Assembly (NCBI GenBank): GCA_013214945.1
Contig: JABSRT010000007.1
Location: 124,001-188,000 of the forward strand
DNA: 64,000 nucleotides
DNA from: Gammaproteobacteria bacterium
Lineage (GTDB): Bacteria; Pseudomonadota; Gammaproteobacteria; Enterobacterales; Psychrobiaceae
Direction of reading: 5' to 3'
Of the stretch, positions 47,087 through 64,000 are shown one piece after another. The translations under genes were made by a program, and so were the position numbers. Within the stretch, counting starts at the first letter, position 1. Each line of letters opens with the position of its first letter. The notes under the pieces were generated by a model. That model ran no database searches. It saw nothing but the letters and a program-made list of their open reading frames with translations, and was not told where the DNA came from.

Positions 47087-47128
47087 TTGTTCTCCAGAGG
47101 AACTTTGTGATAACACGTATAAGTAGAA

Positions 47129-47160
47129 AACCCACGCTAACAATTTCGTTAGCGTGGGTT
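47129..47160 (-). terminator. strong terminator after siderophore receptor
   Basis: AACCCACGCTAAC (47129-47141) and GTTAGCGTGGGTT (47148-47160) are perfect inverted copies around AATTTC. It lies 73 bases after the receptor stop and before the PepSY start. Confidence 0.85.
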
Positions 47161-47232
47161 TGGATTATCCCCGGTAAATTAAGCACCAGAGGATAGCTAT
47201 TTTTAATCGCTGATTAGGCGATACTTGGTCGA

Positions 47233-49353
47233 TTAAAGCTGATAAGTTAGGCCCAAAGTAACATTACGCGGGGCGCCATATCTGTATTGATCAAAGAAAC
47301 CTACTTGGCTGTAGTATTTTTTGTCGAACAGGTTTTCTACATTCAACTGAACCTGTAATTTGTCATTAAAATCATAACGTGCCATCAAGTTTACTAAGCT
47401 GTAGCTTTGCTGGCTTAATGTTTCTGCAGCGCTAGTAATTGGGTTGGCAACATTTTGATATTTCTCACTTTGCCAATTAAGTCCGCCGCCAATCATTAAA
47501 CCTTGCAGCTGATCTGAAAATTGGTAGGTTGAGAAAATTTTAAGTTGTTTACGTGGATGATCTGAGCTTATGACATTACCAGCAGCATCTTCGGCATTAA
47601 ATTGCGAATAACCAACACTAATATTCCAGTCGGTGCTAGGCTGGCCAACGATTTCGACTTCAAAACCTTTACTCGTCGTACCTTGCGCTGCAAAAGAAGC
47701 CTCAATAATGGTGCCTGGCACGAAATGTCCGCTGTCAGTTTGCGCTAAGTTGTCTTGATCAATGCTAAAGATAGCGACCGAGGTATGCAGCATATCGTTG
47801 AGAAATGTGCTTTTTAGGCCAATTTCTTTGCTTTTACCTGTTAGCGGATCAAGGAAATCGCCATTACGATCAATCGCAGTTTGTGGCTTGAAAATTTCGG
47901 TATAACTGGCATAAAGTCGGTGATCGGCTGTCAGATCATAAAGCGCGCCAATATAAGGTACTAGTACCCCGTTATCACCAAAATCTACTGCTGCTCCGTA
48001 GCTGGTACCCTGACGTTGCCAGTTTGACAAGCGAGCACCGGTAATTAATTTTAAATTATCGCTTAAACTTAAGCGAGTCGCCGCGTAAAGCCCTTTTTGC
48101 TCGGTTTCAAGATCGGCCGCTACGGTACTTTCGGTTGCCCATTGCGGCTCTGCATATGAGCCATCCCATTGATTAAAATCACCGGTTGCTGCTGAACTTA
48201 TCACCGCAAAGGTATTGGTAGTGGCTTGCTGCTTGCTCATTAGCGCGCCAACCACGAATTCATGCTCATGATTTAATAAAACAAAATCGCCTTTTAAACG
48301 AACATCAATGCTGTTTTGTGTGCTGCTACCGTTACTGTTATAAGCCCAAGCGTTTAGTCCTGTACCGTTGGCAGAATCGGGGGTGCCATAAAGGTAAAGT
48401 AACTTAGATTCTTGATTGTGCTCAATGTGATTGAAGTTGGTAATTAGCTGCCAGCCATTATTGAAAAAATGCTCAAGGTTGGCAAAATAATTGTTACTGG
48501 TGGTGTCCCATTGGGTCCAGTCTGCTGCGGTGGTAGTAGAGCTATCCCAGTTGGTACGACTGCCATCGCTATACCAGGGCGCTAAATTGCCCCACGTTGG
48601 TGAGGTTGGGGTGTTTTTCTGCTGGCTAGCACCGACGCGAAGCAAGGTGTCAGGACTTAGATCTGCTTCGACAACACCGTAAAATACTTGAGTTTGCTCT
48701 TGGTAAAGCTCAAGGAACGAGTCCGCTTGTTGATATTTAGCGACAACTCGTGCGCGGATTGTGCCGGCTTCATTTAATCCAGACGCTAAGTCAGCCGTTA
48801 GTTGACGTTTATTCCAGCTGCCAATACTGCTGTTAAGGTAGCCTTCAAACTCAGCGCTGTCTGCATGTTTGCGTACTAAGTTGATTGACGCAGAAGGGTC
48901 GCCAGCACCAGTGAGTAAACCAGTAGCACCACGGACAAATTCAATGCGATCGTAAATGGAAACATCGGTAATCGTTTCGCCAGAATCACCGGCTAAACTC
49001 CAAGCCAGTGGCACACCATCTACTTGATAGTTTTCAATGTCAAAACCACGCGCTTGAAACGTGTTACGGACGTTATCGACTTCTTTAACTGAGATACCTA
49101 CCGCACTAACTGCAACATCGGCTAGGCTATCGAAGGCTTGATCTTTAATTCTTTGGGCGGTCATTACACTAACAGACTGCGGCGTTTCTCTTAAGCTAAG
49201 CCCTAATCCGGTTGCGGTATCAATGTTCTCACCGACTGTGTATACACCCGTGACTGTAATTTTTTCAGTTTGTTCGGTGGCCAATGCCAAGCTTGGATTT
49301 AAAGCAAAATTAACTGCAACAACCAGTGGCAGTAATTTAAAACGCAGCTTCAT
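47233..49353 (-). CDS. TonB-dependent siderophore receptor (FhuE/FpvA-like plug), 706 aa
   Basis: A signal peptide (about 1-25) and a TonB box (EKITVTG, about 30-36) are followed by the plug (about 50-165). The plug has LRETPQSVSVMTAQRIKDQ and DRIEFVRGATGLLTGAGDPSASINLVRK, typical of receptors for hydroxamate or mixed siderophores such as FhuE and FpvA. The barrel ends LGLTYQL. The upstream Fur-like site (49402-49420) supports iron regulation. A PepSY protein gene and a His-rich protein gene follow after a terminator. Confidence 0.92.
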   Translation of the reverse strand: MKLRFKLLPLVVAVNFALNPSLALATEQTEKITVTGVYTVGENIDTATGLGLSLRETPQSVSVMTAQRIKDQAFDSLADVAVSAVGISVKEVDNVRNTFQARGFDIENYQVDGVPLAWSLAGDSGETITDVSIYDRIEFVRGATGLLTGAGDPSASINLVRKHADSAEFEGYLNSSIGSWNKRQLTADLASGLNEAGTIRARVVAKYQQADSFLELYQEQTQVFYGVVEADLSPDTLLRVGASQQKNTPTSPTWGNLAPWYSDGSRTNWDSSTTTAADWTQWDTTSNNYFANLEHFFNNGWQLITNFNHIEHNQESKLLYLYGTPDSANGTGLNAWAYNSNGSSTQNSIDVRLKGDFVLLNHEHEFVVGALMSKQQATTNTFAVISSAATGDFNQWDGSYAEPQWATESTVAADLETEQKGLYAATRLSLSDNLKLITGARLSNWQRQGTSYGAAVDFGDNGVLVPYIGALYDLTADHRLYASYTEIFKPQTAIDRNGDFLDPLTGKSKEIGLKSTFLNDMLHTSVAIFSIDQDNLAQTDSGHFVPGTIIEASFAAQGTTSKGFEVEIVGQPSTDWNISVGYSQFNAEDAAGNVISSDHPRKQLKIFSTYQFSDQLQGLMIGGGLNWQSEKYQNVANPITSAAETLSQQSYSLVNLMARYDFNDKLQVQLNVENLFDKKYYSQVGFFDQYRYGAPRNVTLGLTYQL

Positions 49354-49401
49354 ATAATGGTCCCATTTATTATTAATAGAAAAAAGAAGCGCAATGCTAA
49401 T

Positions 49402-49420
49402 GTAAATGATAATCGCTATC
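49402..49420 (-). promoter_or_regulatory. Fur box upstream of siderophore receptor
   Basis: GTAAATGATAATCGCTATC matches 15 of 19 positions of the Fur consensus by eye. It lies about 50 bases before the receptor start. Confidence 0.72.
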
Positions 49421-49778
49421 TATAACTGTTTTTGACGGTTACTGATACTATTTTGTCATTTAATTTTTGTTACTTATTTAACTAGTTGAAATGTAAGCAC
49501 TATAACAGGCTGTTCTATGTAAATGGTAATGATTGTTAATATCGATATTATTAAGGGTGTGCTGAGACGATTTGTCTTAATAATTAGGCAGGGGACAAAA
49601 AATGGCTAAAAGATCGCTGATCCGGCTATTTTTTGTCAGTAACAGAGGTTTAGCGTTACGAGCTAATTACAGAGCGAATTCAATGAGGAACCAATTGTGG
49701 CGGTGAAACAATGGCACCTGTATTTCTGGATTATTTTATCAATGTTGCGCTGGTAACGGCGTAACTTGAATTTTTAAC

Positions 49779-49810
49779 TATCAGCGCACTAAACCGATAA
49801 TGCGCTGATA
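49779..49810 (-). terminator. terminator after the 904-aa receptor
   Basis: TATCAGCGCA (49779-49788) pairs perfectly with TGCGCTGATA (49801-49810). It lies 11 bases after the stop on the minus strand. A GTTAAAAATTC stretch follows, so the U tract is weak. Confidence 0.6.
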
Positions 49811-49820
49811 TGCTATTACC

Positions 49821-52535
49821 TTAATTAAAGTGATATTTCGCGGCCAACCAGAATTGTCGCCCTACTTCAATGCCGGTACCTCCGGTCGAAACTGTATAGG
49901 TACGGGTATTAAACACATTGCTGATGTCTGCGCGTAAATTTAGCTTGTGCAGATGGCTTAGCTTAAGATCCCAATTAAGCCCAAGGTTGACAAGTACCCG
50001 TGGTGAGTACGACTCTTTTTTGTATTCCGTTAATGCATAGGTATTATTAGTACATTCGTTACAGATGTTACTTAGTTCAGAAGACTCTGCATAGTCACCC
50101 GTTGTTACTGCTTTGTCATAGGCGCTGGTGTAAGTTGCACTAATGCTTGAGTTTAAGCGATCAGTCCAGCGGCTATTTATACCAAATTTCACGCTAATCG
50201 GGTTGCCAAAAGTACTATTAATATTATTAAGTTCAGCCTGGGTAATAGTGGTGCCTTCATAAACTACTAATTGATCAATTGACGCATCGTCTATGGAGTT
50301 ATCATAGTCATCAAAATTAGATTTGCTGCTGCTGTAACTGGTATTGGCCCATAAAGAATGGTTGGCGATCTGGCCGCTCCATGCCAGCGATATGCGGCGG
50401 CTAGTACCCTTAGCGGTGTTGTCTTGCTCTATGTAGCTATACCCGTCGCTACCTAGATAATACTCGCCAGATCTCGCTAATTGATCTTGTTGCCAGCGCG
50501 CGACCATTTTTAACGAAATTTGGCCAAACTGCGCCAGTGACTGTTTCCAGCCGAGTACTAATTCATCGTTATATGGCGTTTTAAGGTTTTGGTAGCGATA
50601 GCGGAAATCACTATCGGAACTTGAACGTTGCCAGCCCTGTAAGTAACTGCCACTGATATCGCGATATTGAATGTAATAAGGTATTTGCGCTTCTCTGGTT
50701 TTGTAGGTTAATAAACCAGCATCATAATAACGGCTGGCCCCAAAGATGAGTAAACTCGAATTATCAGAAAATACGTCATAGCCAAAACTGGTGCGCGGCG
50801 CAATATTAACGTTGTCAAAAACGTCATCATAATCAATACGCATACCTAAATTAAGGCTTAAGTCGCCCCATTCAATGGTGTCGGTAACAAACCCATGCAA
50901 CTTAATTAAATCAACACTGATATCTTCAGCACTATAAACAACGCGCGATTGAAAATATTGTGGGGCGACGGCTATATTATTTGAATACGCAATAATATCG
51001 TTACCATCGGTCGGATCGATTGCATGGCCAAGCTCTTGTTCGAGTTGAGCTAATGGTTTGTAATAACTAATTTCAACACAATCGAGCTGATAACCACTGC
51101 AATTTAATGGCTCGCTGGTTGGGGCAACTGGGTATATAAAGGCTGAATTATATTTATAACTGTCCTGAGCACGTTGGCGATCTAATTGTTCGTGTTCAAT
51201 ACCAAAGCCAAGTTTAATGTCATGGTATAGCTCACCGGTGCTTAATGAATTTAAAGTGAAAGTATTTTTCCAGCTGGTGGTTTGCTGTTGTTTTTCAAGT
51301 GAACCATAACCACCTTCTAATGAGTAAGGGTTGTCCTCTGAATTGCTGGAAGCTAGCTGGCCCCAATCTTTGCCGGTGGCTTGGCGCCAAATATAATAAT
51401 GATCAGGTGCTTCACGGCTATTGTCACTGCTATTAAATTGTAACTTGCTGTTGGCATCGCCAAAATCGAATTGGTGATTGAGGTTAAGTGTGGTACCGAA
51501 ACCACCACCATTAATGGTGAGGTTGCTGTTTAAGGTGTCTTTTAAGCCTTCTTCCTTTTGGTAAGGGGCATAAATAACACTAAAATCGATGCTATCAATC
51601 AAGGTATCGCGCTGTGAGTATTTTAGTAATACATTACTGCTGCTGCGTTCCTTAGTGGTATTTTGCTGTAGGGATATTCCACTGACGGTACTGGTTAAAT
51701 AATTGCCACTTATTACGATGCCATGGTGTTGATTAAACTGATGGCTTGCCATCACATTATACGATTGCTTGTTGAATACCGGGACTATAGGTGTATCACT
51801 GATCGAATCTTCTGATTCAATAATGTGATATTGGCCCCAGCTGCTTTGAGTGCCGCGATAACCTAGGCTAAATGAATTTTGTTCAGTATCAAACGCGTTA
51901 ATTGATGAGACACTGACAACTCCCCCCGAAAAGTCACCATACTCTGCAGGAATGTTATTGTCATACACATCAATTGATTGAACAATTTCACTGTTGATAC
52001 TGTAAGTTTGTGGCGAGCCTTGCACATCGTTAATTGAGCTGATTGCACGATTGTACGCATTGGGATCTTGGCGGCTGTTGTAATTCATGCCATCGAGGAA
52101 AAATCCGGTCTGCCATGGCTGACCGCCAGAAATAGACAGCTGTTTGGCGCGTACGTCGGTTAACGCTTCTATCGAATAGGCGTCATCGAGCATTTCTACC
52201 CCAGGTAATAAAGCAACTAAATCATTAATATCGCCCGTTGTGCGGGGGCTTTGCTCAATAAATTTTTTGTCTAAATGAAAACGTCCGCTCATGCCAGAGG
52301 CTTCTAAACCAACATAACGGGTACCGATCACGGTCCGTTGCTCGGTGTGTAATTGTTTTACACACTCGGCCAGCGTTGCTTGGTCAGCTTGTGGATGTTT
52401 CTCATTACACTGTTGTTGTAACACTGTGTTTGCATCGCTTGTCGCTTTTTGCGTGTTAGCTTGCTGCGATAGAGGGGCATTTTGAGCCTGAGAGGCAAAT
52501 GATATTACCAGTAAGCTGAAAAGATAACTGCGCAT
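49821..52535 (-). CDS. large TonB-dependent receptor of unknown substrate, 904 aa
   Basis: I chose ATG 52535, preceded by GGGAG and followed by a signal peptide (MRSYLFSLLVISFASQAQ), over an upstream GTG at 52562. A pre-plug region of about 60 residues has two cysteines and many Gln. The plug follows, with TGDINDLVALLPGVEMLDDAYSIEAL (split by variable residues), SGGQPWQTGFFLDGMNYN, and NNIPAEYGDFSGGVVSV. The barrel ends WLAAKYHFN. The plug differs from those of siderophore receptors, lacking the usual RG-DQVE-V-RGP stretch, and resembles receptors of larger or carbohydrate/peptide substrates. No clear TonB box was identified. It is divergent from a large surface lipoprotein gene. Confidence 0.85.
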   Translation of the reverse strand: MRSYLFSLLVISFASQAQNAPLSQQANTQKATSDANTVLQQQCNEKHPQADQATLAECVKQLHTEQRTVIGTRYVGLEASGMSGRFHLDKKFIEQSPRTTGDINDLVALLPGVEMLDDAYSIEALTDVRAKQLSISGGQPWQTGFFLDGMNYNSRQDPNAYNRAISSINDVQGSPQTYSINSEIVQSIDVYDNNIPAEYGDFSGGVVSVSSINAFDTEQNSFSLGYRGTQSSWGQYHIIESEDSISDTPIVPVFNKQSYNVMASHQFNQHHGIVISGNYLTSTVSGISLQQNTTKERSSSNVLLKYSQRDTLIDSIDFSVIYAPYQKEEGLKDTLNSNLTINGGGFGTTLNLNHQFDFGDANSKLQFNSSDNSREAPDHYYIWRQATGKDWGQLASSNSEDNPYSLEGGYGSLEKQQQTTSWKNTFTLNSLSTGELYHDIKLGFGIEHEQLDRQRAQDSYKYNSAFIYPVAPTSEPLNCSGYQLDCVEISYYKPLAQLEQELGHAIDPTDGNDIIAYSNNIAVAPQYFQSRVVYSAEDISVDLIKLHGFVTDTIEWGDLSLNLGMRIDYDDVFDNVNIAPRTSFGYDVFSDNSSLLIFGASRYYDAGLLTYKTREAQIPYYIQYRDISGSYLQGWQRSSSDSDFRYRYQNLKTPYNDELVLGWKQSLAQFGQISLKMVARWQQDQLARSGEYYLGSDGYSYIEQDNTAKGTSRRISLAWSGQIANHSLWANTSYSSSKSNFDDYDNSIDDASIDQLVVYEGTTITQAELNNINSTFGNPISVKFGINSRWTDRLNSSISATYTSAYDKAVTTGDYAESSELSNICNECTNNTYALTEYKKESYSPRVLVNLGLNWDLKLSHLHKLNLRADISNVFNTRTYTVSTGGTGIEVGRQFWLAAKYHFN

Positions 52536-53096
52536 TTTAGAGCACTCCCTTGAGCGAGTCACAAGTGCAGTGCATTGAGACGTTTAAAATCGAGCAAGAG
52601 AGTTTACTCTTGGTAAAGCGGCGCATAGTTACCTCGTAATATTGGATAGTTAAAACGGGCGTATAATAAACGTAAACGCAATCGAGATCAATTATCGTTT
52701 GCATTATCAGTTACTGTTTTTTGTCGGGTTATTTTTCGTCATAGCTGTTTGAAATTGATAAGATCTATCAAGATGATAAAGACGGTGGCTAGCCCCATTA
52801 ATACTGTAATTTTGGATGAGTCGTTATCGACATCGCAGAAAAACAATCCAATATTAATTGTATGATGCTAGCCAATGAGGATTGCAGAGCTTATTAATCG
52901 CGGTCTTAACAACGTTATTAATGACTCATTTAGCCAGCTAAGTTCACAGGTTTTTCATGCTAATTAAACTCAGTAACCTAATATAATAAAAATTGAGTAA
53001 TTACTTTAATGCAATTGAGAATGCTAATAGATCTCATTAATATTATGGTGTAATATGCGCGTGTTTTAATCATATTAATTTAATGAGGTAGTAGTT
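52536..53096. other. divergent promoter region between receptor and lipoprotein genes
   Basis: Two weak Fur-like sites were noted. One is near 52680-52712 on the receptor side (GATAATGCAAACGATAATT on the minus strand, about 12-13 of 19). The other is at 53017-53035 on the lipoprotein side (GAGAATGCTAATAGATCTC, about 13 of 19). I see no gene in this stretch. Confidence 0.45.
53017..53035 (+). promoter_or_regulatory. possible Fur-like site upstream of lipoprotein gene
   Basis: GAGAATGCTAATAGATCTC lies about 60 bases before the start at 53097 and matches about 13 of 19 Fur consensus positions by eye. Iron control of this gene is therefore possible. Confidence 0.35.
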
Positions 53097-55898
53097 ATGC
53101 GTCGATTTACCAAGAGCAAACTCAGTTGCTCGATGTTTTTAATTTCTATGCTATCCGCTTGTGGTGGCTCTGAAAGTTCCAACTTAGCGCCAAATGTTAG
53201 CTCGGCTAATCTGGCGCCGATATTAACTGAAGACAGTGTTTTTCAGGGGGTAATCACGGCTACGGACGATAACAATAGCTCATTAAACTTTACCGTTGGT
53301 TCGGCTGCGTCACACGGTATTTTTGCGTTAAATAGCGATGGCAGTTATACCTATACACCAACGGCTAACTTTGTTGGTACTGATACCGTAACCGTTAATG
53401 TGTCTGACGGTGAAATGACGACAGCAACGACACTGACTTTCACTTCGACTAATGTCAACGATGCGCCAGTTTTACTTAGTCATAATGTTTCAATTGATCT
53501 TCAAGGGGTAACTCAGGGGAATCTGGTTGTTGAAGATGCTGATGGCGATGATTTAACGTTTGCGATTGTTACAGATGTCGATACCTTAAATGGTGCCTTA
53601 ACGCTAGACTCTGCGACTGGTACTTTTACTTATACCGCCCAAGGTGAGCTTGACACTGAGTTTAGAATTTCATATACCGACGGTATTATTGATGAGCCGA
53701 TTGTTGCAGTAATATCAATTCAGCCTAGTTATGTGACGAATCAAAATAAGTCAGACTATTACTATAGTTCGGAAAAGTCTCACTTAGTTAAAGCGCAAGC
53801 GGTATCAGCTGAGTTAACCGGTGATAATGCGGTTAACGAATTAACCTCGCAACTCGCTAATGGATATATGCTTGCGAGTGATCAGATTAAAGCTAATGCG
53901 TTATTAGACTCGATAGCCGAATTAGTGTCTCAAGCTAAAGCATATCGTTTATCTGCTGATACGTTACAAGAAAAGGGTGATTTTGCCGGTGCTCAAGCTT
54001 TACGAGTTAAAGCGGAAATAGCGTATAATTATTATTTAGGGCAAAAAGGCATCGCTAATATCAGCAGCAGTGATGCTTCTTTTATGTATGCATTGTTTAA
54101 CGATTATATTGATGGCGGCAGCAGCAGTAGCAGCGAAAAAGCGATAGCTTATGGGGCGACGATTGCCACTTTTTCTGCTGAGGTTAACACCGACGTTTCC
54201 TCTAGACCCTATGGTTATTTTGTTAGTGCTTTGGCTAGTAGTGCTCAAGATCGTTTCAATCGTTATATTAGCGATCGTACAAGCAGTAATTATGATATTG
54301 CTCTGCAGGCGATTTCTGACTATGCAAGCTTAGCTGAAGGCATGGGCTATTTAGTCAAGTCTAGTGGCACCTACTATAGTACAGCCGTTTATAACACAGC
54401 AAAGGCGGCAGGTTTGTTCAACCGTTTGGGCGCGCAGGAATTGGCAAAAGAGTATACCGCCAAGGCGTTATCTTATTACCAAGCAGTAAATTACGATAGT
54501 GATTTTACATACCCAGTTAAAGAATACGCAGCAACCACGCTAACTAAATACCCAACAGGACTTACCGCAATCAGCGGTTTATTTGCCGCATTGTACCCAA
54601 ATGAGCCAAATCTACCGTTGGCGTTAGTGCTTGCCGAGGAAGGGGCGGCAGACAAAGATTACACTAAAGCGGTTGAACTTCAATTGGCTTACACTGCTTA
54701 TAATGCGGTTTTAAATGGCACTGATATAGCGACAGCAATTGTGCCACTTAAAGAACATTTCATTGAAGAAGAAGGCGACTACCGTAGCTACTACCAAGCG
54801 TTAGTTGAATATGATGTAAACAATCCACGTTTAGGCACGCTATTAGCAGAGAAAGGAGAAACAAATAAAGCGCTTGAGGTGTATCAGACCGCCTCAACGT
54901 TATTAACCAGTGAAGCTTATGTCGGCTCTCAAACCATGAGTATGTATGTGACAGGTTATAAGGGTTGTACACGCCTCACTCAGCTAACGATAGCAGCTGG
55001 TGGCGATAGCCTAAATCAAGCCGCAGAGTGCCAAAAAATTGTTGATCAGTATTTTAAGTTGGCGACAGGGAAATTCACACAAGATACGTTATTCGCGGCT
55101 AAGTACGAAGTAATGCGCGCACATTGGGACATCGAAAGTCTTGCTGCAATCGATGCTGTAGCTGTGACGTTAAATAGTGAACTCGAGAGCTTAGAAAGCG
55201 ACAGTGCGACGCTAGAAGAGCAATTTGGACTGGCTGAGCGTTATTTGAAACTTGCCGGTTATTTAGCGACTTACCAGCGTTATGATGATGCTAAAGCTGC
55301 TTACACTACGGCAATGGTTAAATTGCAAAGTTTGAGCGAAAACGATCAAACCGACGCCGCTTTACTTAAAGATATTTTGGGTCTGGTTGAAAATGACATT
55401 GCGTCTTATGATCCTGCTAAAACAGGTGCCTTCGAGCGCAAAGCTTATTTAGTTGCGCTACGCCATGGAGCTGGACAATTTAATGAATATGAGAACCAGC
55501 TTAGCGAAACACTTGCAGCGTTAGCTAACTTAACGGCGGTGAACAATAGCAAGGTTGCACTGCTATCGGTTAATGAGCAGCAAGGTGTTATTGAAGATCA
55601 GCTATTGATTAATCTGCACGCTGGTCTTAATGATAGCGCTGATGCATTAATTAACAGTGTGGTTAACGAAGCGGTAGAGCAGCAGGAGCTATTATTGCTT
55701 AAGGGCGGATTCTTAGCACAGCAAAATGCATTTCCAGCGAGTAATATCGCCAGTGTCGATACTGATAGCGATGGCATGCCAGACTTCTTTACGTTAGAAG
55801 CAACAGCAGCACAAATTGTTGCTAGTGGCCTGACGATGGACAACGACAACGATAACGATAATGTTCCGAATGCCGCAGATATTACGCCGATTGGTTAA
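53097..55898 (+). CDS. large surface lipoprotein with cadherin-like and helical repeat regions, 933 aa
   Basis: The N-terminus has a lipobox (MLSACGG, lipidated C about 22). A beta-sandwich pair of the cadherin/VCBS type (about 40-205) has GSYTYTPTANFVGTDTVTVNVSDG and TGTFTYTAQGELDTEFRISYTDG. A long all-helical region of TPR-like character (about 215-880) follows, for example SYYQAVNYDS and EYTAKALSYYQ. The C-terminus (about 880-933) has two Asp-rich calcium-binding stretches, DTDSDGMPDFFTLE and DNDNDNDNVPNAADITPIG, like thrombospondin type 3 repeats. AGGT before the ATG is a good ribosome binding site. Its divergence from the 904-residue receptor suggests a SusD-like partner role, which is inference. 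I do not know a named family for the whole protein. Confidence 0.85.
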   Translation: MRRFTKSKLSCSMFLISMLSACGGSESSNLAPNVSSANLAPILTEDSVFQGVITATDDNNSSLNFTVGSAASHGIFALNSDGSYTYTPTANFVGTDTVTVNVSDGEMTTATTLTFTSTNVNDAPVLLSHNVSIDLQGVTQGNLVVEDADGDDLTFAIVTDVDTLNGALTLDSATGTFTYTAQGELDTEFRISYTDGIIDEPIVAVISIQPSYVTNQNKSDYYYSSEKSHLVKAQAVSAELTGDNAVNELTSQLANGYMLASDQIKANALLDSIAELVSQAKAYRLSADTLQEKGDFAGAQALRVKAEIAYNYYLGQKGIANISSSDASFMYALFNDYIDGGSSSSSEKAIAYGATIATFSAEVNTDVSSRPYGYFVSALASSAQDRFNRYISDRTSSNYDIALQAISDYASLAEGMGYLVKSSGTYYSTAVYNTAKAAGLFNRLGAQELAKEYTAKALSYYQAVNYDSDFTYPVKEYAATTLTKYPTGLTAISGLFAALYPNEPNLPLALVLAEEGAADKDYTKAVELQLAYTAYNAVLNGTDIATAIVPLKEHFIEEEGDYRSYYQALVEYDVNNPRLGTLLAEKGETNKALEVYQTASTLLTSEAYVGSQTMSMYVTGYKGCTRLTQLTIAAGGDSLNQAAECQKIVDQYFKLATGKFTQDTLFAAKYEVMRAHWDIESLAAIDAVAVTLNSELESLESDSATLEEQFGLAERYLKLAGYLATYQRYDDAKAAYTTAMVKLQSLSENDQTDAALLKDILGLVENDIASYDPAKTGAFERKAYLVALRHGAGQFNEYENQLSETLAALANLTAVNNSKVALLSVNEQQGVIEDQLLINLHAGLNDSADALINSVVNEAVEQQELLLLKGGFLAQQNAFPASNIASVDTDSDGMPDFFTLEATAAQIVASGLTMDNDNDNDNVPNAADITPIG

Positions 55899-55959
55899 TA
55901 AGTACTAATTAAGTAAAAACACAAGAAAGGGTGGAGACACCCACAGTAAGTGTTGAAAG

Positions 55960-56004
55960 GGCAGTGCAAGAGTGGGGAGACCTGATTTTGCACTGCCTTT
56001 TTTT
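55960..56004 (+). terminator. rho-independent terminator after lipoprotein gene
   Basis: GGCAGTGCAA (55960-55969) pairs perfectly with TTGCACTGCC (55988-55997). Seven T residues follow directly. Confidence 0.92.
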
Positions 56005-56130
56005 GTCATGAGACGATAAATTGAACCGTTTGTGCGAGGTATTTAAGCAAGAAAGTTGTTCTCATCCGACTTTATTTTTTGATGTTAGTCTGTATACTCT
56101 GGTAACTTTTCATAAAAATCATAAGATTGC

Positions 56131-57567
56131 ATGGCAGTTATATTAAATAGGAAGTTTAATTTCGGTCTACTTATCTTGGGAGTATTGATTTTACTGTCGG
56201 GGTGTCAATCGACAAGCAAACCAACCTCAACTGCCGATTTTCCGGCACAACTACTGTCGTTTCCGCGTGATAGCAAGATACTGGGTGACGATATTGTCGA
56301 TGTTCAGTTAGCGTTGGCCGATCGTAACCTTTACCTGTCAAATAACGACCGGATTAAGATGTTGGCTACAGAGCAATGTAGCATAGATATTTCTGCTCAT
56401 CGTGGTGACTTTCGCGAGCCAGAAAATAGCGCGCGAGCGATTACCAGCGCGTTAAAAGATAACTTTAATAGTGTCGAAATTGACGTGATGTTATTGCGAG
56501 ATGGTACTTGGGTTAATCATCATGATAAACAATCTGGTCGTGCGACGGTTTATTATTCTGGCCAACGCCATAAAATAGAAAAGATGAGTCTGCGTAATTT
56601 TGGTGGCTTAAAGCTTCGCGCTAAAAACAGCAATGAGTTGCTGGATGAGCGCCCGATTACCGCTTATGAATCGTTTAAAGCCTTTGCTGATTATCGCAAT
56701 AATCAGCAACAACTCAATGTTGAGGTTAAATCTGACGCGACTGGGCATCAGTTGAATAAACTCGACCAAATGTTACGTTTAACAGTTGGGCAAGGCGGGT
56801 TTTATTATTCGTCGTTAAATCGCGAGGTGTTACGTAAATTACGAGGCATTAATGCCAAGGTTTATATTGGCTTTATTGCCGGCGCACACCCAACGAGTGT
56901 CAGCAAGCTTCGCGCCGCACTGAAAAAAGGGGTGAAGGACGACAGCTTATATCGTCGGTATATGAAAGAAATTGAGACGGTAGGCAATTACTCGATCAAA
57001 AGGTACCGCGCCAAATATAAAAGCTATAGCTCCGCCGCTGCGATTAAAAGCCTGCATCGTGATTTTGGCGCCAACTCAGGACTTCACCTTGATATTCGCC
57101 AGTACGTAAGAAAACCAAAAATAAAACAGTATGCTCAGCGCTTAGGCATGAAGGTATACACCTATGCAATCAACGGTTCTGACTATCACCAAGGCCGGTT
57201 AGTTGCTTTAGGGAAAAATCGGTTACCCGACGGGGTGATTGTTGACGCAACACCGTATCGGTTGTGCCAAAAATTATTCAAACCATCAATCGCGGCTCAG
57301 CGCCATCATGCGTTAAGCCCAAGTGGCGCCTATATTATGAGCCTGCCAAACGATGCCGACTTTGACCGACTCGAAGAAATGCTCGGTTACCGCCAAGAAA
57401 ATTATTATATTGCGCTTTCAAGTCGCCTCGCCCCGATTAAAAAATTGCCGAGTAAATCAAGTGTAACTAAGCGGCTTACAGTGGCTTTTCCAACGATTAA
57501 AGATCAAACAATAAAGTCTAATACCAGTAAAGCAATTGTGATTAAATTATCAGGCTATCAACAATGA
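56131..57567 (+). CDS. GDPD-like lipoprotein (glycerophosphodiester phosphodiesterase fold), 478 aa
   Basis: The lipobox LLSGC gives a lipidated Cys at residue 25. The catalytic pattern of glycerophosphodiester phosphodiesterases is visible: AHRGDFREPENS (H90, R91, E98), VEIDVMLLRDGTWVNHHD (E117, D119, H131), and VEVKSD. A long region with Lys/Arg-rich helices (about 260-330) precedes the last barrel strands (VYTYAIN, DGVIVDATPYR). The length exceeds typical GlpQ (about 360). It is coupled to the next gene by a 4-base overlap (ATGA). Substrate and membrane side are not certain. Confidence 0.88.
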   Translation: MAVILNRKFNFGLLILGVLILLSGCQSTSKPTSTADFPAQLLSFPRDSKILGDDIVDVQLALADRNLYLSNNDRIKMLATEQCSIDISAHRGDFREPENSARAITSALKDNFNSVEIDVMLLRDGTWVNHHDKQSGRATVYYSGQRHKIEKMSLRNFGGLKLRAKNSNELLDERPITAYESFKAFADYRNNQQQLNVEVKSDATGHQLNKLDQMLRLTVGQGGFYYSSLNREVLRKLRGINAKVYIGFIAGAHPTSVSKLRAALKKGVKDDSLYRRYMKEIETVGNYSIKRYRAKYKSYSSAAAIKSLHRDFGANSGLHLDIRQYVRKPKIKQYAQRLGMKVYTYAINGSDYHQGRLVALGKNRLPDGVIVDATPYRLCQKLFKPSIAAQRHHALSPSGAYIMSLPNDADFDRLEEMLGYRQENYYIALSSRLAPIKKLPSKSSVTKRLTVAFPTIKDQTIKSNTSKAIVIKLSGYQQ

Positions 57568-60035
57568 CCGATGAGCAGTTAAGTCCATTTTCAAAGCAGC
57601 TTTTAAACCAAGCGCCAACGCAAAACAAAATGCGCCAAGCCGAGCAAGTGCTAAAAACAAGCCAAGCTAAGCAAATTAAGCAGCAACAATCTCAAGCGTC
57701 TCAAGCAACCCAGGCAGCGCAAATTGCTAAGGTGGGCAAGCCGCTGTGGTGGCTGGTATTTATGTTCGTTTGCTCGGTATTGTATTTATTTCCTGAAGCG
57801 GTTTTTAACGCGGCGCTAACCGATGTTGCGGGTGGTAAAAGTTCGACCGACGATGAACTGCGCGCCATTGAGTTATTTGGCCGGGCAATTAGTGGCATTG
57901 GCGTTACCTTGTTGTTGGCCGACTTATTACTTAAAGGCAGGTTGTTAACCAGTGGCGTTAAAGCAATCGGCAGTTTGCTGTTGATTGGGGTAATTGTGTG
58001 GCCGACGGTTTTTTTTGGTCAAAAATGGTTAGTTGATCATTATATCGTTGATGCCTCTACGGGGGCAGAGCGGCAACGGGCTTATTTGTCGCAAGTTATT
58101 CGCCGGGCATTAATTGAAAAGTCGGTCGAGATAGAGGGCATTCATTACCAGCCAGATCAGCCGCACTCAGGGGTTGAAAAAACCTTTTTATCGGTCTTTG
58201 GTGGCTTGGTGTATGCCGACGATCAAGTTATTGCGACGTTAGAGCAGCAAAAGCGCCAAATTATGGAGCGGTTTGTACGTGATCACGCAATGTCTAGCTT
58301 TGATCAGCATTACGCGCAATACGATCAGTTTCGTCAAACCCTTAAGGGCCATTATACGACCTACGCGACTAAGTCTAATCAATATAACGATGCGATTGGT
58401 GGTTCGTCGCGCCGCTCTGATCAATATTGGCTCGACACTCAAAATGAGATTAAGCAAGGCTGGGCTAAATACCAAAAAGGGCTAACGGCCTATGAAGCAC
58501 GGGTTGAAGCGCGGGCGCAAAAAATAGCTCCCAAGGTGTTTGATTATTTTAAACGGCGTCAAAAATGTGCAACTTATAGCAGTAACAGCAGTAAAAATCG
58601 TTGTTATCAACGACTGCAAAAGGGCTATGACAAAGAAATTAAGAAATATGGCATTGGATATATTCCGGCTAATGATTGGTTAAAGCGTGAAGAAATTAGC
58701 ACCGCCAGCAACATCGGCAGCTCATTGCTAACGGGTGTCTTAACCGGTGGCTTATCGACAATTTTACAAGCGGCCAATGCCGCGATGGGTGGTGACGGTG
58801 GTTTTAAAGATCACCGAATGATTTTCACTAATGACGTTAACCATTATAAAGCGATTCTCATGGTTAAAATGGCGGGCAGTTTTGTCAAAAGTTCAGGCGG
58901 TTATCCGCTGGGCATTAGCTCTATTCATAAGTTTCGCCATCATAAAGTCACGGCTAAAAAAGTAAGAAAAAGCTTAAACGCTAAGGGACTTAAATTACCA
59001 AGCAGCTGGACGTTGGCCCAACGAGCCACGTTTAACCGCGCGGTATTAAATAAAGTGACGGCTCAGGCTAAGGCTAAATGGCGTAGTGGCATGCAAGCGC
59101 GTGGCAGTAAAATTGGGCCAAATTTATCTTGGCGTAAATTTCAATTACACCCAGAAATTCAAGCGCGCCTAGCAAACCAAATGGCCGAGCTATATGTTAA
59201 GCCAATGCTGGCTGATTGGAACAACCGCCAGTTTAAGCAACGGGTTATTGACGTAAATATTAAGCGTAAAACCAATGAATATCTTAAGGTGATGAACGCG
59301 CAAATAGTTGAATTTGAAGACGGCGGTTCGTTCGAGTCGACAGGCAAGGCGGCGTTGCGCGGCATTATTATTCCGCCGATTTCGATGTCGATATCCTTAA
59401 TGCTGGTACTGCTTACACTATTAAAACTGCCGATAAAAGCGGTTGAGCTGGTTAAGGCTAAACGAGCGACTCAAGAGGTTACGCCAGTTAAAACCAAAGG
59501 CTATATTAGCGTCTTAGTTTCAGGTGCTTTAATCGCAGCTATTGTTGCTTTGCCTTTGCTTGTTGGTGGCAACAAATTTACCCAGTCTGGATCTGCGGTT
59601 AATTACTTCTTGGTGCAAATGGATAAAAATGACTCGGCGTTAGTGTCTTTCTCGCTTAAGTGGTTATTAACGACGCAGCCATTAGTGCAACCGACCGGAC
59701 TTGCGATTGATAATCTTTTGGGAATAACGACCGTGTTTAACGCCATTAGCGAGCCGCTAAATCAGTTTGACCAGCGTTTTTTTGCTGAACATGAAACGAG
59801 TGAGTTAGCAGCGAAATCTCTCGGTAAGTCGTCTAATAATACGTTGCCATTAACCATTACCACCAATGTTAAGGGCGCTAAGGTATTTATTATGAATATC
59901 AAACCCAAATATAGCCCAGGCATGATGCTGCCCAAAGGCGCCTATGATATTAAGGTTGTAAAATCGGGTTATCAATCAGTTAGAAAGTGGATTTATTTAA
60001 AAGAACGCCAAAGCAGTTTCGCGATTAATTTGTAA
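57564..60035 (+). CDS. large membrane protein with C-terminal PEGA domain, 823 aa
   Basis: I do not recognise the whole protein. A Gln-rich coiled-coil-like N-terminus (about 15-50) precedes membrane helices at about 57-80, 103-122 and 130-152. A long soluble basic part (about 160-600) follows, with two cysteines (RRQKCATYSSNS and NRCYQRLQKGYD) and many Lys/Arg. Two more helices (about 603-630 and 650-670) come next. The C-terminal 65 residues are a PEGA domain (TTNVKGAKVFIMNIK, LPKGAYDIKVVKSGYQSVRKWIYL). PEGA domains are found in surface or secreted regulators. It starts inside the GDPD gene and is followed by the zinc-motif membrane protein, forming a three-gene unit. Confidence 0.85.
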   Translation: MTDEQLSPFSKQLLNQAPTQNKMRQAEQVLKTSQAKQIKQQQSQASQATQAAQIAKVGKPLWWLVFMFVCSVLYLFPEAVFNAALTDVAGGKSSTDDELRAIELFGRAISGIGVTLLLADLLLKGRLLTSGVKAIGSLLLIGVIVWPTVFFGQKWLVDHYIVDASTGAERQRAYLSQVIRRALIEKSVEIEGIHYQPDQPHSGVEKTFLSVFGGLVYADDQVIATLEQQKRQIMERFVRDHAMSSFDQHYAQYDQFRQTLKGHYTTYATKSNQYNDAIGGSSRRSDQYWLDTQNEIKQGWAKYQKGLTAYEARVEARAQKIAPKVFDYFKRRQKCATYSSNSSKNRCYQRLQKGYDKEIKKYGIGYIPANDWLKREEISTASNIGSSLLTGVLTGGLSTILQAANAAMGGDGGFKDHRMIFTNDVNHYKAILMVKMAGSFVKSSGGYPLGISSIHKFRHHKVTAKKVRKSLNAKGLKLPSSWTLAQRATFNRAVLNKVTAQAKAKWRSGMQARGSKIGPNLSWRKFQLHPEIQARLANQMAELYVKPMLADWNNRQFKQRVIDVNIKRKTNEYLKVMNAQIVEFEDGGSFESTGKAALRGIIIPPISMSISLMLVLLTLLKLPIKAVELVKAKRATQEVTPVKTKGYISVLVSGALIAAIVALPLLVGGNKFTQSGSAVNYFLVQMDKNDSALVSFSLKWLLTTQPLVQPTGLAIDNLLGITTVFNAISEPLNQFDQRFFAEHETSELAAKSLGKSSNNTLPLTITTNVKGAKVFIMNIKPKYSPGMMLPKGAYDIKVVKSGYQSVRKWIYLKERQSSFAINL

Positions 60036-60090
60036 ATGATTTTTGTGTCATTGAACAGCAATAATATTAGCAGTGGATAGGGAATTAAAA

Positions 60091-61980
60091 TTGACTACAT
60101 TAGATAAGTTTCAAGCTTTTGTGCGAAAACAAGGCGAGGAAATTACCGGGTTAGCAGTACCAGTGGTATTAAGCGAGCAAGATCAAAAAAACTCGCCACT
60201 AAAATATACCTTTGGTTGGTCAATTGAAATTGGCGTATCAGGCCATGATCACGGGGCTTATTGTCCGTCTGGTGCTGGTGTTATTAATTGTGGCAACATG
60301 CAAGGCGCCAAAGAACAAGCGCACAGCGATGCTAAAAACTATATCAGTGGTCAGCACTCTTTGTTTAACGATCGGTTGCTCGGCAATTTATCGTCTAATG
60401 TCGCGACAAATTTTACGATGGGTAATACAGATTTGGCCAGTGCGCCTCATCGTTATACCGGATCTGATCCTTGCTATAGCTGCCATGGTCGCGGTGAAAA
60501 AACATGTGGTGGTTGTAATGGCCATGGCAAAACCCGTTGCAGTTATTGCAGCGGATCGGGGCGGGTTGATACGCAGCATTACGATAGCCAAGCGCAGCGG
60601 ACTATTTACTCCACCAAGGGCTGCCCAACTTGTTATGGCAGTGGTTCAAACACCTGTAGTAGCTGTCATGGTAGTGGCGATGTCCGTTGTAATGTCTGTA
60701 GTGGTGGTGGGTACCTTTATTATAGTTTTACTATTGATGGCGAAGCCAAGCGACGTACCCGTTGGAGTTTTGAAAATAACGATCGCCATGACTGGGCTGA
60801 AAGCTTTATAAATAAGCGCGGCTTGCATATTATTTCGAGCCTAACAAATATCGAAGAAGTTGATGTTCAGGGTGGTTTTGACGGCTGTACCTTTGTTTAT
60901 GCAATGGCTGCTACGCTGTCGACATTACAGTTCAAAGCAACGGTCGACAGCGGTGATACTCGATTATGCTTTGCTGGCAGCAATCATCTGGTGCACGACG
61001 CAGGCGGGGTGTATGACCCAGCCGTTTGGAGTATTGGCCAGCAATTAGGTGGCGGCAATCAACAAACAGACAAAGCAGTATTGGGAGTGCCCGTAATAAA
61101 AAGCATTCTTGAAAGCCATGAAACCGATGAAAAAGTGGATTTGGTGGAACAAAACTGGGTGTCAAAAGACATCGCTAAGGCAGTGGTTGATAATTACTTG
61201 GTGCTGGTGCAGCAATTAAAACAGGCGAGCACCCAAGGCATGTTGGGGCACATGATTAAAGGGCTGTGTAAAAATGGTTACTTACTTATCGGCGTTATGC
61301 TGTTGGCCGCATTGTTAATGCCTAGTTTTGCTGATGGCGTTGGCAGGCGTTTTAATCTAGGTATTTACCCGTCATTGGTCGATGATTTTTTTACGGGCTA
61401 TTATGGTTTATTTGGATTGCCGCATTGGGCCAATTATGGCTTTGCATTAGCCTATGTTGCACTGATTTCTTGGGCTGTTAATAAATTATATTGGAAACGA
61501 ATTGGTAAACTAAAAAATTATTCAATAACACTATTTATCGCGTTAACCATTCCTTATGTGCTTATTTTAGCGCTAACAACCCTGCCTCAAATGTTTAATA
61601 CCCGTTACGATGTCGGTCAGCTAATAGCTGGTGGCACTGTGTTTACTGGCTTTTATCTGCTGTGTTGGTGTTTGGCTCGGCCGATAAAGTGGTATTTAAA
61701 ACTGACCGCTGCAATGGTGTTTTCAGCATTATTATTGGGAGCCGAAAAGCTCAATGCCAGCTTTGAACTAATTAAGTTAACGCAAGGCAGTCTGCTTAAT
61801 CAGTTTAAATTTATCATGGAGCCTGCTTTAAGTTATGTCGGCTCAAATGTTATTGAGCTGAGCATAATCACGATAGCGCTAACGATTGTAGTCGTACGCA
61901 GAAGATTATGGCTGAACACTAAATCGGTGGTTGTAGACTATGACAGCCCAGTGTTGCTAAAGTCGATGAAAATGGATTAA
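60091..61980 (+). CDS. membrane protein with six CxxCxGxG zinc motifs (DnaJ-like, no J domain), 629 aa
   Basis: An N-terminal domain of about 120 residues precedes six CxxC sites at residues 128, 139, 150, 178, 189 and 200. These form two sets of three spaced exactly 11 apart, like the DnaJ cysteine-rich zinc domain, but no J domain is present. A further region (about 215-370) is followed by about five membrane helices in the C-terminal 240 residues. I chose TTG at 60091, with AGGGA 7 bases before it, over the upstream in-frame GTG at 60073, which lacks a ribosome binding site. It lies 55 bases after the PEGA protein gene. The function is unknown; zinc-dependent binding of unfolded or partner proteins is possible. 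Confidence 0.85.
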   Translation: MTTLDKFQAFVRKQGEEITGLAVPVVLSEQDQKNSPLKYTFGWSIEIGVSGHDHGAYCPSGAGVINCGNMQGAKEQAHSDAKNYISGQHSLFNDRLLGNLSSNVATNFTMGNTDLASAPHRYTGSDPCYSCHGRGEKTCGGCNGHGKTRCSYCSGSGRVDTQHYDSQAQRTIYSTKGCPTCYGSGSNTCSSCHGSGDVRCNVCSGGGYLYYSFTIDGEAKRRTRWSFENNDRHDWAESFINKRGLHIISSLTNIEEVDVQGGFDGCTFVYAMAATLSTLQFKATVDSGDTRLCFAGSNHLVHDAGGVYDPAVWSIGQQLGGGNQQTDKAVLGVPVIKSILESHETDEKVDLVEQNWVSKDIAKAVVDNYLVLVQQLKQASTQGMLGHMIKGLCKNGYLLIGVMLLAALLMPSFADGVGRRFNLGIYPSLVDDFFTGYYGLFGLPHWANYGFALAYVALISWAVNKLYWKRIGKLKNYSITLFIALTIPYVLILALTTLPQMFNTRYDVGQLIAGGTVFTGFYLLCWCLARPIKWYLKLTAAMVFSALLLGAEKLNASFELIKLTQGSLLNQFKFIMEPALSYVGSNVIELSIITIALTIVVVRRRLWLNTKSVVVDYDSPVLLKSMKMD

Positions 61981-62022
61981 CAGCGCTATTCGGTCGCTTT
62001 GCTCTGTAGGTTGTTAAAACTA

Positions 62023-62055
62023 TTGCATGTTCAATTACCCTAATTGAACATGCAA
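62023..62055. terminator. bidirectional terminator between zinc-motif gene and AraC gene
   Basis: TTGCATGTTCAATTA (62023-62037) and TAATTGAACATGCAA (62041-62055) are exact inverted copies around a 3-base loop (CCC). It lies between convergent stops. Confidence 0.8.
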
Positions 62056-62088
62056 GTGCACCACTAGCGATAACTTATACGCGACAAC

Positions 62089-63102
62089 TTATACGCGAAG
62101 ACTCGCCCGGTATTGCAGCGGTGATAAGTTTGTGTGTTTCTTAAAGGCGCGGGCGAATGCACTAGGAGAGTTGTAACCTAGCTGATAGGTTATTTCAGTA
62201 ATTGAACAGCCGCTCATTTCTAGTTGTTGCTTAGCCAATAATAAACGGACTGAACTTAGCAATTGCACAAAAGATTGATTTTCAGAGTGTAACTTTCGTT
62301 GCAGCGTGCGTTTACTCAAGTGCAGCTTAAAAGCGACATTTTCTTCATTAGCGCAGCCGGTTGGTAATAGCTCGGTAATTATCTTGGTCACCTTGGCACT
62401 GATTTCACCATTTTTCATGGCACTGAGGTATTTATTGACCGCCATTTCGTTTATCTGTGCTAACTCAGGATCGTGACTTGGCAATTGCTCATTGAGCAAT
62501 GATTTTGAAAACGAAATCCCATTAATCTCTTGGTTGTCGTGGATCGGGCACTGGAAAAAATCTTGGTAAGCTTTTTTGTTACCTGTGATCGCAAAGCTAA
62601 AATAAACACCGGTTGCCGGAATGTTTTTTGCCGCTGCGATGCGAAACATCTGCAGAAAAAAACCAATGCCGAGCTGAATACCACACGGGTGGCCCTTAAC
62701 TCGCTGGGCTGGCGCTAGTTTTGAATGATATTGAATTAATAGTTGATCGCCTTGTTCAATCAGCTTGATTTGCATCGCTGAATTAATTAGCTGGCTTTGC
62801 TCGACAAAACGGCGCAGACCTTGTTCTAGGTTGGCACTGGCCATCCATGCGAGCCCAATACCCTTTAAGTAAGTCGGCTGAAATAGCGAAGCGGCCACTA
62901 AGCCCAACTCGTTATTTTGGGTGGCGTCGACAGCCAGCTGCCATAAATGAAACACTTGGGTCATCGGTACCTGATGTTCCTTGCTTGAAGGAGCATTAAT
63001 ATCTATGCCTGCTTGCTTAAAAAGAGGAGCGGCTTCAATGTCGTAAACCGACAGAGCTTGCGATATTAGCTGAAGGACAGTTGAAATTGTTGTTTGGCTC
63101 AT
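62089..63102 (-). CDS. AraC-family transcriptional regulator, 337 aa
   Basis: An N-terminal arabinose-binding-like domain of the OruR/QuiR type (about 10-200) is followed by the C-terminal double helix-turn-helix (about 240-335). The latter has KLHLSKRTLQRKLHSENQSF and EITYQLGYNSPSAFARAFKKHT. The last codons overlap a 15-base tandem duplication (AACTTATACGCGA twice near 62075-62100). It is divergent from the DUF3313-like lipoprotein gene. Targets are unknown. Confidence 0.9.
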   Translation of the reverse strand: MSQTTISTVLQLISQALSVYDIEAAPLFKQAGIDINAPSSKEHQVPMTQVFHLWQLAVDATQNNELGLVAASLFQPTYLKGIGLAWMASANLEQGLRRFVEQSQLINSAMQIKLIEQGDQLLIQYHSKLAPAQRVKGHPCGIQLGIGFFLQMFRIAAAKNIPATGVYFSFAITGNKKAYQDFFQCPIHDNQEINGISFSKSLLNEQLPSHDPELAQINEMAVNKYLSAMKNGEISAKVTKIITELLPTGCANEENVAFKLHLSKRTLQRKLHSENQSFVQLLSSVRLLLAKQQLEMSGCSITEITYQLGYNSPSAFARAFKKHTNLSPLQYRASLRV

Positions 63103-63323
63103 TATTAACTTTACGTGGCAGCAATGTATAACTTGATCCTACCCTATTGCTGACACCAAATGGACATTTTTTGGCGCGCGATGTCGCGTAAGTGATATCG
63201 GAGATAATTAAAATAGCAGACAAAATTATTAAGGAATTATGTTAGTGATTAAGTAATAATTAATGTTAATTTTATAGCAGTAGCTGTATCTAATATTTGA
63301 AGTTTTCAAGGGTTTTATAAAAA

Positions 63324-64000
63324 ATGAAAAATAAAATGAAAGTTGTTGTTAGTAACAAAAGTGGCTTGTTGCTGATGTTATGTCTGTTTTTAGCCGGTTG
63401 CAGTAATACGATACCTCAAGTGAAGTCGGGCTTTCTTGGTGATTACTCACAATTGCAGCCTTCGACTCAATATGACAATACCAGCATCTATCAGGCGCCA
63501 GGATTTGACCGGTCAAGCTTGGCTGCTGTTACAGAGATAAAACTAGAACCGTTTGAGGTATGGATTAAGCAAAGTCAAATAACCAGCATCAATCGTGAGC
63601 AGTTACTTGAGTTGCATTCATACTTTCATCGTGAACTGACCCAAGCACTAGCGGCAGATTATAAAATAGTGACGGTTGCCAGTGCTAATACATTAACTAT
63701 CCGTGGCGCTTTTTCAGGAGTTAAACTAACCAAACCAGGTTGGTCAGTATTAGATGTCACGCCATTTCGAATCGTGATTAATTCTGGTAATGCCGCATAT
63801 TTAATGGCTACTGACCAAAAAGATTTATTATCAGAGGTTTCGATTGAGGCTGAGTTTTTATTGGGTACTAACCCTAATCGCGTGTTTGCGATGACCGCGA
63901 GCAAAGAATTAGATGTAACTGTTAGCCAGCAAAGTGCTGGCAATGTCGACGCTGTGACTCAAGTACTCGATATTTGGGTAGAACAGTTTGCAGCGGCTTT
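63324..64000 (+). CDS. DUF3313-like lipoprotein, truncated by window end
   Basis: The frame starts with ATG 63324 and is open to the last base. The signal peptide ends in a lipobox (FLAGC, lipidated C about residue 26). The mature part begins SNTIPQVKSGFLGDYSQLQP, typical of DUF3313 lipoproteins. About 225 residues are visible, including GAFSGVKLTKPGWSVLDVTPF and EVSIEAEFLLG. The function of the family is unknown. It is divergent from the AraC-type gene, which could control it. The 3' end is outside the window. Confidence 0.85.
   Translation, partial: MKNKMKVVVSNKSGLLLMLCLFLAGCSNTIPQVKSGFLGDYSQLQPSTQYDNTSIYQAPGFDRSSLAAVTEIKLEPFEVWIKQSQITSINREQLLELHSYFHRELTQALAADYKIVTVASANTLTIRGAFSGVKLTKPGWSVLDVTPFRIVINSGNAAYLMATDQKDLLSEVSIEAEFLLGTNPNRVFAMTASKELDVTVSQQSAGNVDAVTQVLDIWVEQFAAA

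Follow-up and report, generated by a model that had tools for sequence, protein, structure and literature searches.

The 64,000-nucleotide stretch analysed here (the window; positions 124,001 to 188,000 of the forward strand of contig JABSRT010000007.1, assembly GCA_013214945.1, from a gammaproteobacterium of the Psychrobiaceae) carries three consecutive plus strand genes, termed A, B and C, that encode a GDPD lipoprotein, a large inner-membrane protein with a PEGA tail and a membrane protein with a DnaJ-type zinc motif. Judged from gene order across genomes, the natural core is A-B and not A-B-C; the neighbour of this pair varies among at least three alternatives, C being one of them. On the sequences compared, the linkage of the genes is firm and their function is not. 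We tentatively favour the explanation that A and B form a complex of the cell envelope: B would provide the docking site for a phosphodiesterase in the periplasm and connect that enzyme with an inner module that can be exchanged. The genes and their principal domains are located as follows.

56131..57567, plus strand: gene A, GDPD lipoprotein, 478 aa (open reading frame (ORF) call)
56398..57246, plus strand: GDPD domain of A, residues 90-372 (Pfam PF03009)
57564..60035, plus strand: gene B, inner-membrane protein, 823 aa (ORF call, predicted helices)
59850..60011, plus strand: PEGA domain of B, residues 763-816, transthyretin-like fold (Pfam, model)
60091..61980, plus strand: gene C, zinc-motif membrane protein, TTG start, 629 aa (ORF call, homologue starts)
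60472..60711, plus strand: six CXXCXGXG repeats of C (DnaJ-type zinc motif)

An initial annotation, made from the window alone, had described three consecutive genes with a 4-base overlap and a 55-base gap, coding for a GDPD-like lipoprotein, a very large membrane protein with a PEGA tail and a six-CxxC zinc domain fused to membrane helices without a J domain. This description was upheld. A and B overlap by 4 bases, and an ORF scan of the spaces between the three genes found no additional plus strand frame of at least 50 aa. The longest frame of C opens at a GTG at 60073 (635 aa); most aligned homologues start at the position of the TTG at 60091, which is most likely the true start and gives a protein of 629 aa and a gap of 55 bases after B.

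A scan of named genomes with a B profile yielded 39 loci. A was found upstream of B in 36 of these, from Shewanella, Colwellia, a Psychrobiaceae metagenome-assembled genome (MAG), Pseudoalteromonas and Vibrio, a count that includes one locus with approximately 850 bases between the two genes (L026) and another in which both are frame-broken (L039). C lies 3' of B in 22 of the 39; two of these, Colwellia L042 and the Psychrobiaceae MAG L039, have a DUF1439 lipoprotein gene in between. The third gene encodes a zinc-ribbon membrane protein in eight loci, seven of which have a second phosphodiesterase gene next, and an FtsK/SpoIIIE-type ATPase with small helical proteins lies beside B in six. The remaining three loci comprise A-B alone (L047), another lipoprotein gene with B (L058) and a locus whose contig ends inside B, where A is absent from the 2.9 kb upstream (L059). 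The second phosphodiesterase is named from two plasmid records, where it is annotated as an ectonucleotide pyrophosphatase/phosphodiesterase; the zinc-ribbon version occurs in Pseudoalteromonas. Distant homology between C and the Pseudoalteromonas zinc-ribbon protein was considered and rejected (hhalign probability 0.4%).

A tree built from 54 B proteins placed the 23 C-linked forms in one fully supported group, and neighbour labels over the 54 rows required 6 changes against a mean of 27.8 when shuffled. Divergent rows lie on very long branches, so only the main groups are trusted; on these, the type of neighbour tracks the clade of B. Given the varied neighbours in the 39 loci, A-B-C represents one clade's version of a wider A-B family. 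The initial annotation had taken all three genes as the unit, which was borne out in part: A-B-C recurs in 22 loci and several genera, whereas the conserved unit is the A-B core, with C swappable. The role that it suggested, in envelope lipid or protein quality, is conjectural. Homologues in other neighbourhoods, which it had named as grounds for doubt, were found for C (four genomes) and for divergent B, and not for A with full-length B. In Azospirillum, a single 971-aa protein combines a B-like part with a GDPD domain (E = 4.5e-15), which is placed after the last helix of B, on the side predicted to be periplasmic. Among 15 loci with divergent B and lacking A, a lipoprotein gene lies directly 5' of B in seven (L014, L017, L057, L058, L079, L154 and L155).

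The GDPD domain of A passed the curated Pfam cutoff (PF03009; E = 7e-11, 43.1 bits against 23.6), and equivalog GDPD models of NCBIfam scored far under their cutoffs. All 42 rows of an alignment have residues H90, R91, G92, E116, D118, H131, D132, E198 and K200; this alignment counts the window twice, contains several near-copies as well as the Azospirillum fusion, and omits the broken L039 copy. These residues make up the HRG, ExD, HD and ExK elements, which we take to be the catalytic and metal-binding motifs of GDPD enzymes, and by this alignment the catalytic motifs of A are intact. A lipobox was present in all 40 A proteins scanned, none of which has Asp after the cysteine (+2). Under the Lol rule, lipoproteins without Asp at +2 are destined for the outer membrane, which points to that location for A.

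B contains five hydrophobic segments, predicted to be helices. Because of the charge pattern (K+R to D+E of 8:3 at the N-terminus and 6:2 in the loop between helices 4 and 5), the N-terminus is predicted to lie inside, followed by three helices, a periplasmic helical domain of approximately 440 aa, two further helices and a periplasmic PEGA tail. In 26 rows the large-loop cysteines C335 and C347 do not vary, as might be expected if they form a disulfide in the periplasm, and the invariant residues E78, N82, E103, R107, Q153 and S611 are at or near the predicted periplasmic ends of membrane helices. An AlphaFold2 model (mean predicted local distance difference test score (pLDDT) 78.6, predicted template modelling score 0.54) is nearly all helical bar the tail. 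PEGA scored 20.3 bits against a Pfam cutoff of 20.8 (PF08308), and the modelled tail is transthyretin-like (Z = 7.3 to 5aq0, root-mean-square deviation 2.1 over 63 residues). PEGA is treated as peptidoglycan-associating in the accessible portion of a 2020 eLife paper (PMC7159879), where A-B is not described. No significant Pfam or NCBIfam match was obtained for B outside this tail. Candidate relatives of the helical part from VIA-align were discarded as generic long helices, a clear fold being evident in the PEGA tail only, and the two matches of the B profile to sequences of solved structures (E = 0.64 and 0.81) were taken as chance.

All six CXXC motifs of C are complete CXXCXGXG repeats. 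The zinc domain scored 19.4 bits against PF00684 (cutoff 32.7), and no J domain was found by Pfam at E ≤ 1. In the model of C (mean pLDDT 74.5, below 50 in the zinc repeats) the repeats are inserted in a beta-rich N-terminal domain that is followed by about six membrane helices; the zinc domain is predicted to face the cytoplasm. Full-length C was present in six of 98 relatives of the window genome, its own genome included, always adjoining a gene for a PEGA protein. The neighbour was B in two (with a DUF1439 gene between in G003) and a membrane-anchored PEGA protein of 111-125 aa in four. A trio that lacks adjoining A or B (L074-L077) consists of a small PEGA protein, a C homologue and then a membrane protein of 143-160 aa. 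The position of C beside a PEGA protein in six of six genomes suggests that it acts via PEGA-bearing partners. Two further genomes match the N-terminal half of C only and have no PEGA gene beside it by eye; the other 11 C matches among the 98 relatives are of DnaJ-like length.

The ATPase-linked loci are organised differently. In Vibrio the operon encodes, in order, a coiled-coil protein with a C-terminal hydrophobic stretch, an ATPase of approximately 960 aa, two small proteins, a second coiled-coil protein, a WxD-motif protein, A and B. Intergenic gaps are mostly below 25 bases, with 193 bases in L048 and L053 (first small gene uncalled) and 122 in L115. Among solved structures the ATPase is closest to EccC (4nh0, 1.3e-26; DNA-translocase FtsK, 1e-9), and a single Walker A motif, in the middle part of the protein, was seen in seven of seven Vibrio and Idiomarina sequences. 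In a sample of 196 genomes drawn from the genus of Vibrio sp. LaRot3, full-length B was found in seven and the full-length ATPase in eight. All seven B genomes carry the ATPase in the same operon and seven of the eight ATPase genomes carry B; G602 has the ATPase set without A-B. In Idiomarina, B and another lipoprotein gene are joined to the ATPase set in a different order, and in Pseudidiomarina B and the set are both present and lie apart. The full-length ATPase was detected in seven of 29 searched genomes with B relatives (25 of the 39 loci and four further genomes), namely five Vibrio and two Idiomarinaceae. A family sample around Idiomarina gave full-length B in two of 118 genomes and the full-length ATPase in one, the other B genome having A-B alone. 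Across the class, B relatives occurred in six of 369 genomes, which gave no full-length match to the ATPase and two single-domain matches. A search of the window genome found no EccC-like ATPase, only a short partial match (31% over approximately 96 residues, E = 3.7e-5, in an 887-aa frame); the window locus is therefore not a type VII system. The ATPase operon with hairpin-like small proteins is rare in the Vibrio sample (8/196; for example L048:2869-12379, L114 and L115). In Pseudidiomarina sediminum (L096) the ATPase set lies beside an AraC-type regulator and several possible substrates, proteins that on visual inspection look secreted.

One family of the small proteins has a Y-x-G motif and, in six of nine members, a Pfam WXG100 match over most of the protein: Deinococcus (E = 7.6e-5), Idiomarina (0.0013), Pseudidiomarina (0.0074), two Vibrio-genus genomes (0.016 and 0.017) and G602 (0.041). 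All six matches fall under the Pfam cutoff (best 23.3 bits against 27.3), and no Pfam WXG100 match was obtained for the V. sinensis, V. rhodolitus and V. plantisponsor proteins. Comparison with solved structures returned WXG100 proteins at 0.007 and 0.025, with spectrin-like helices equally good. From these profiles, kinship of the family to WXG100 is probable. The WxD-motif family (c46) was rejected as WXG100: structures returned generic helices and the one member scanned had no Pfam match, so only the motif speaks for that identity. No WXG100 match was obtained in the window genome at E ≤ 0.001, a search that would miss most of the diverged sister-locus forms. None of five linked Vibrio proteins scanned against Pfam gave a match to a membrane component of a type VII secretion system (T7SS).

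Conserved gene order, intact catalytic motifs, the Azospirillum fusion and the operon link to an EccC-like ATPase are observed. The topology and docking, the activity and its substrate, the direction in which a signal or cargo would pass and what C does are inferences. In the envelope complex favoured here, B would reside in the inner membrane with its large helical domain and PEGA tail in the periplasm, and lipoprotein A, carrying an active GDPD, would dock on B from the outer-membrane side. A may cleave an envelope phosphodiester, most likely one derived from phospholipid (for example a lysophospholipid or glycerophosphodiester), a substrate suggested by the occurrence of two phosphodiesterase families together. 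B would tie the periplasmic activity of A to an inner module that is exchangeable: C in the window, with its predicted cytoplasmic zinc domain; the zinc-ribbon membrane protein and second phosphodiesterase in Pseudoalteromonas; and the EccC-like ATPase with small helical proteins in Vibrio and Idiomarina.

Several results weigh against this arrangement. The large loop of B is basic (70 K+R against 39 D+E), which would fit a cytoplasmic location equally well. Neither the model of B nor that of C (635-aa form) retrieved a Foldseek match at E ≤ 0.001, the best hit for C having Z = 5.4 over 76 residues. Of the 15 divergent B loci, five have no upstream gene with a lipobox or secreted appearance (L018, L019, L020, L021 and L081), two have upstream genes that look secreted by eye (L080 and L083), and a lipobox hit in L082 proved false, lying inside the frame of a 306-aa membrane protein. 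A-B occurs with none of the three neighbours in L047, L078 and L153 and may thus require no partner; relatives of B also occur without any A, several on plasmids or near phage-type integrases, which implies that B can act without a GDPD protein. The co-occurrence of B and the ATPase in the Vibrio sample (Fisher p = 4e-12) is not corrected for ancestry, and 11 further Vibrio-genus genomes have divergent B relatives or PEGA matches only, none with the ATPase (e.g. G572, G609 and G645).

The initial annotation recognised no known system in the three genes, and Pfam, NCBIfam and PADLOC likewise gave no name to the combination; in PADLOC, A matched PglZ alone (E = 3.9e-4), and B and C nothing at E ≤ 0.01. 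No paper recognised as describing this operon was returned by a literature search whose coverage excluded most subscription papers and preprints. A shares its domain and motifs with the GDPD/GlpQ phosphodiesterases and differs in being a lipoprotein with extra N- and C-terminal regions, encoded upstream of B. The central zinc domain of DnaJ (PF00684) usually has four CXXCXGXG repeats; C shares the repeat and differs in having six of them together with membrane helices, and in that no J domain was found. Resemblance to the Firmicute and mycobacterial T7SS (EccC/EssC, EsxA) is limited to the Vibrio and Idiomarina sister loci, through the ATPase and, weakly, the small proteins; T7SS membrane components are unmatched in the five linked Vibrio proteins, and the window genome lacks the ATPase. 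A table footnote in a survey of polymorphic toxins (Biol Direct 2012, PMC3482391) notes that some proteobacteria have solo WXG domains and a YueA-like ATPase, 'mobile versions of T7SS', and that in the YueA-like ATPase only the middle of three FtsK domains is active. The Vibrio set, with its single middle Walker A and sub-threshold WXG100 small proteins, as in Idiomarina, fits this note on proteobacterial T7SS-like loci as far as the accessible text goes. It differs in that the same portion of PMC3482391 mentions no link to a B-type protein or GDPD lipoprotein, and the window genome is without such an ATPase. No named system containing B was found, with the reservation that the sister loci could turn out to represent one form of a T7SS-like system.

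These likenesses lend themselves to another explanation, in which a type VII-like machine of diderm bacteria exports its cargo through the envelope by way of A-B. The EccC-like ATPase and the WXG100-like hairpin proteins would lie on the inside, B would span the inner membrane and periplasm, and A would remodel the envelope locally from the outer membrane; the window would carry a derived form whose motor has been lost. The single operon of ATPase, small proteins, A and B in seven Vibrio genomes, the Idiomarina arrangement with another lipoprotein, the closeness of the ATPase to EccC over FtsK and the six WXG100 matches, the best at 7.6e-5, would all be accounted for. However, every one of those matches is under the cutoff, three Vibrio members give none, and solved WXG100 proteins are retrieved no better than spectrin-like helices. 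The EccC-like ATPase is absent from the window genome and from 22 of the 29 searched genomes with B relatives, and the ATPase set occurs without full-length B in G602 (genome-wide) and in Deinococcus (within the 20.6 kb fetched). Since the window has no motor, export is not directly applicable to its locus, and we regard this explanation as unlikely, if attractive for the Vibrio loci.

A role in defence or conflict, in which a membrane sensor releases an envelope-damaging phosphodiesterase on attack by phage or plasmid, would suit the patchy spread of the B core (five of 98 relatives, the window genome included, one copy being cut by a contig end) and the presence of B relatives on plasmids and beside integrases. 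The Vibrio ATPase also matches PADLOC SspH (1.5e-28) and mad8 (9.1e-20) over its FtsK domain, and a set of a related motor type, annotated as FtsK/WXG100, lies on a Caballeronia plasmid (L072) with vWA, PP2C, kinase and CARF-domain genes. Against this, PADLOC returned nothing for B or C and for A only the PglZ match, the divergent B of L079 was unmatched in phage records, none of 140 pattern matches in a B-profile scan of viral contigs was confirmed, and the Shewanella unit occupies a recurrent chromosomal site. Such a function is improbable. Lower still in our estimation is a housekeeping-like turnover of envelope lipids, with A, and the second phosphodiesterase in Pseudoalteromonas, recycling glycerophosphodiesters and B and C serving as scaffold and stress regulator; two phosphodiesterase families in one gene run and the intact GDPD motifs would agree with it, but the distribution is too patchy for housekeeping and the link to an EccC-like ATPase would go unexplained. 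That A, B and C are chance neighbours of unrelated function is very improbable, since A-B is kept in 36 and A-B-C in 22 of 39 loci from several genera and an A-B fusion exists, even though C and B relatives are each found elsewhere without the others.

The boundaries of the unit are marked by two hairpins.

55960..56004, plus strand: intrinsic terminator between the 933-aa upstream gene and A-B-C (long stem, UUUUUUU)
62023..62055: 15-bp hairpin 3' of C, non-canonical as a plus strand terminator

The strong terminator that the initial annotation placed 5' of the unit was confirmed (-31.1 kcal/mol, z = -6.45, seven U following). Its second terminator, 3' of C, is a real hairpin (15 pairs, z = -6.64) and lacks a plus strand U-run; it is therefore not canonical, and the right-hand boundary is less certain. 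An Rfam scan of window positions 53000-63500 returned no match. Directly 5' of the unit (53097-55898) lies the gene for a 933-aa protein with cadherin-like/VCBS repeats and, by eye, a lipobox. On the minus strand, 45881-52562 carries genes for a PepSY-TM protein and a TonB-dependent receptor, probably ordinary uptake genes; a pair corresponding to the first two is present in L058, within a few kb of B. In Shewanella (L023, L024, L036, L038 and others), A-B-C follows the 6S RNA gene at a distance of 0.2-6 kb in four of five loci scanned, and 14 of 20 Shewanella A-B-C loci precede a gene family represented in L023 by 5-formyltetrahydrofolate cyclo-ligase. An NCBIfam scan covered three B relatives and the plasmid neighbours: the three B relatives matched no conjugation family above chance level, and a TrbC-like protein is encoded two genes from B in L014. 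In L079 and L083, from genomes of two different families, divergent B has an Arm-type phage integrase and an excisionase-like gene, similar in both loci, in its vicinity, a context that suggests an integrative element carrying B.

Returning to the A-B envelope complex, B recurs in marine Gammaproteobacteria, often beside a lipoprotein gene and with three different inner modules. Should it prove to be a lipid-processing complex, two phosphodiesterase families would be tied to a new membrane scaffold. A broader interpretation, which we consider doubtful, is that A-B is an undescribed diderm envelope-spanning platform on which several kinds of inner machine draw, a type VII-like EccC motor in Vibrio and Idiomarina among them, the phosphodiesterase lipoprotein opening or modifying the outer envelope for passage. 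If so, A-B would be the missing outer half of the proteobacterial T7SS-like loci noted in 2012. As the envelope part of such a machine, it would offer a candidate route across two membranes for Gram-negative T7SS-like ATPase sets, and the Vibrio operon would be a defined place in which to test that crossing.

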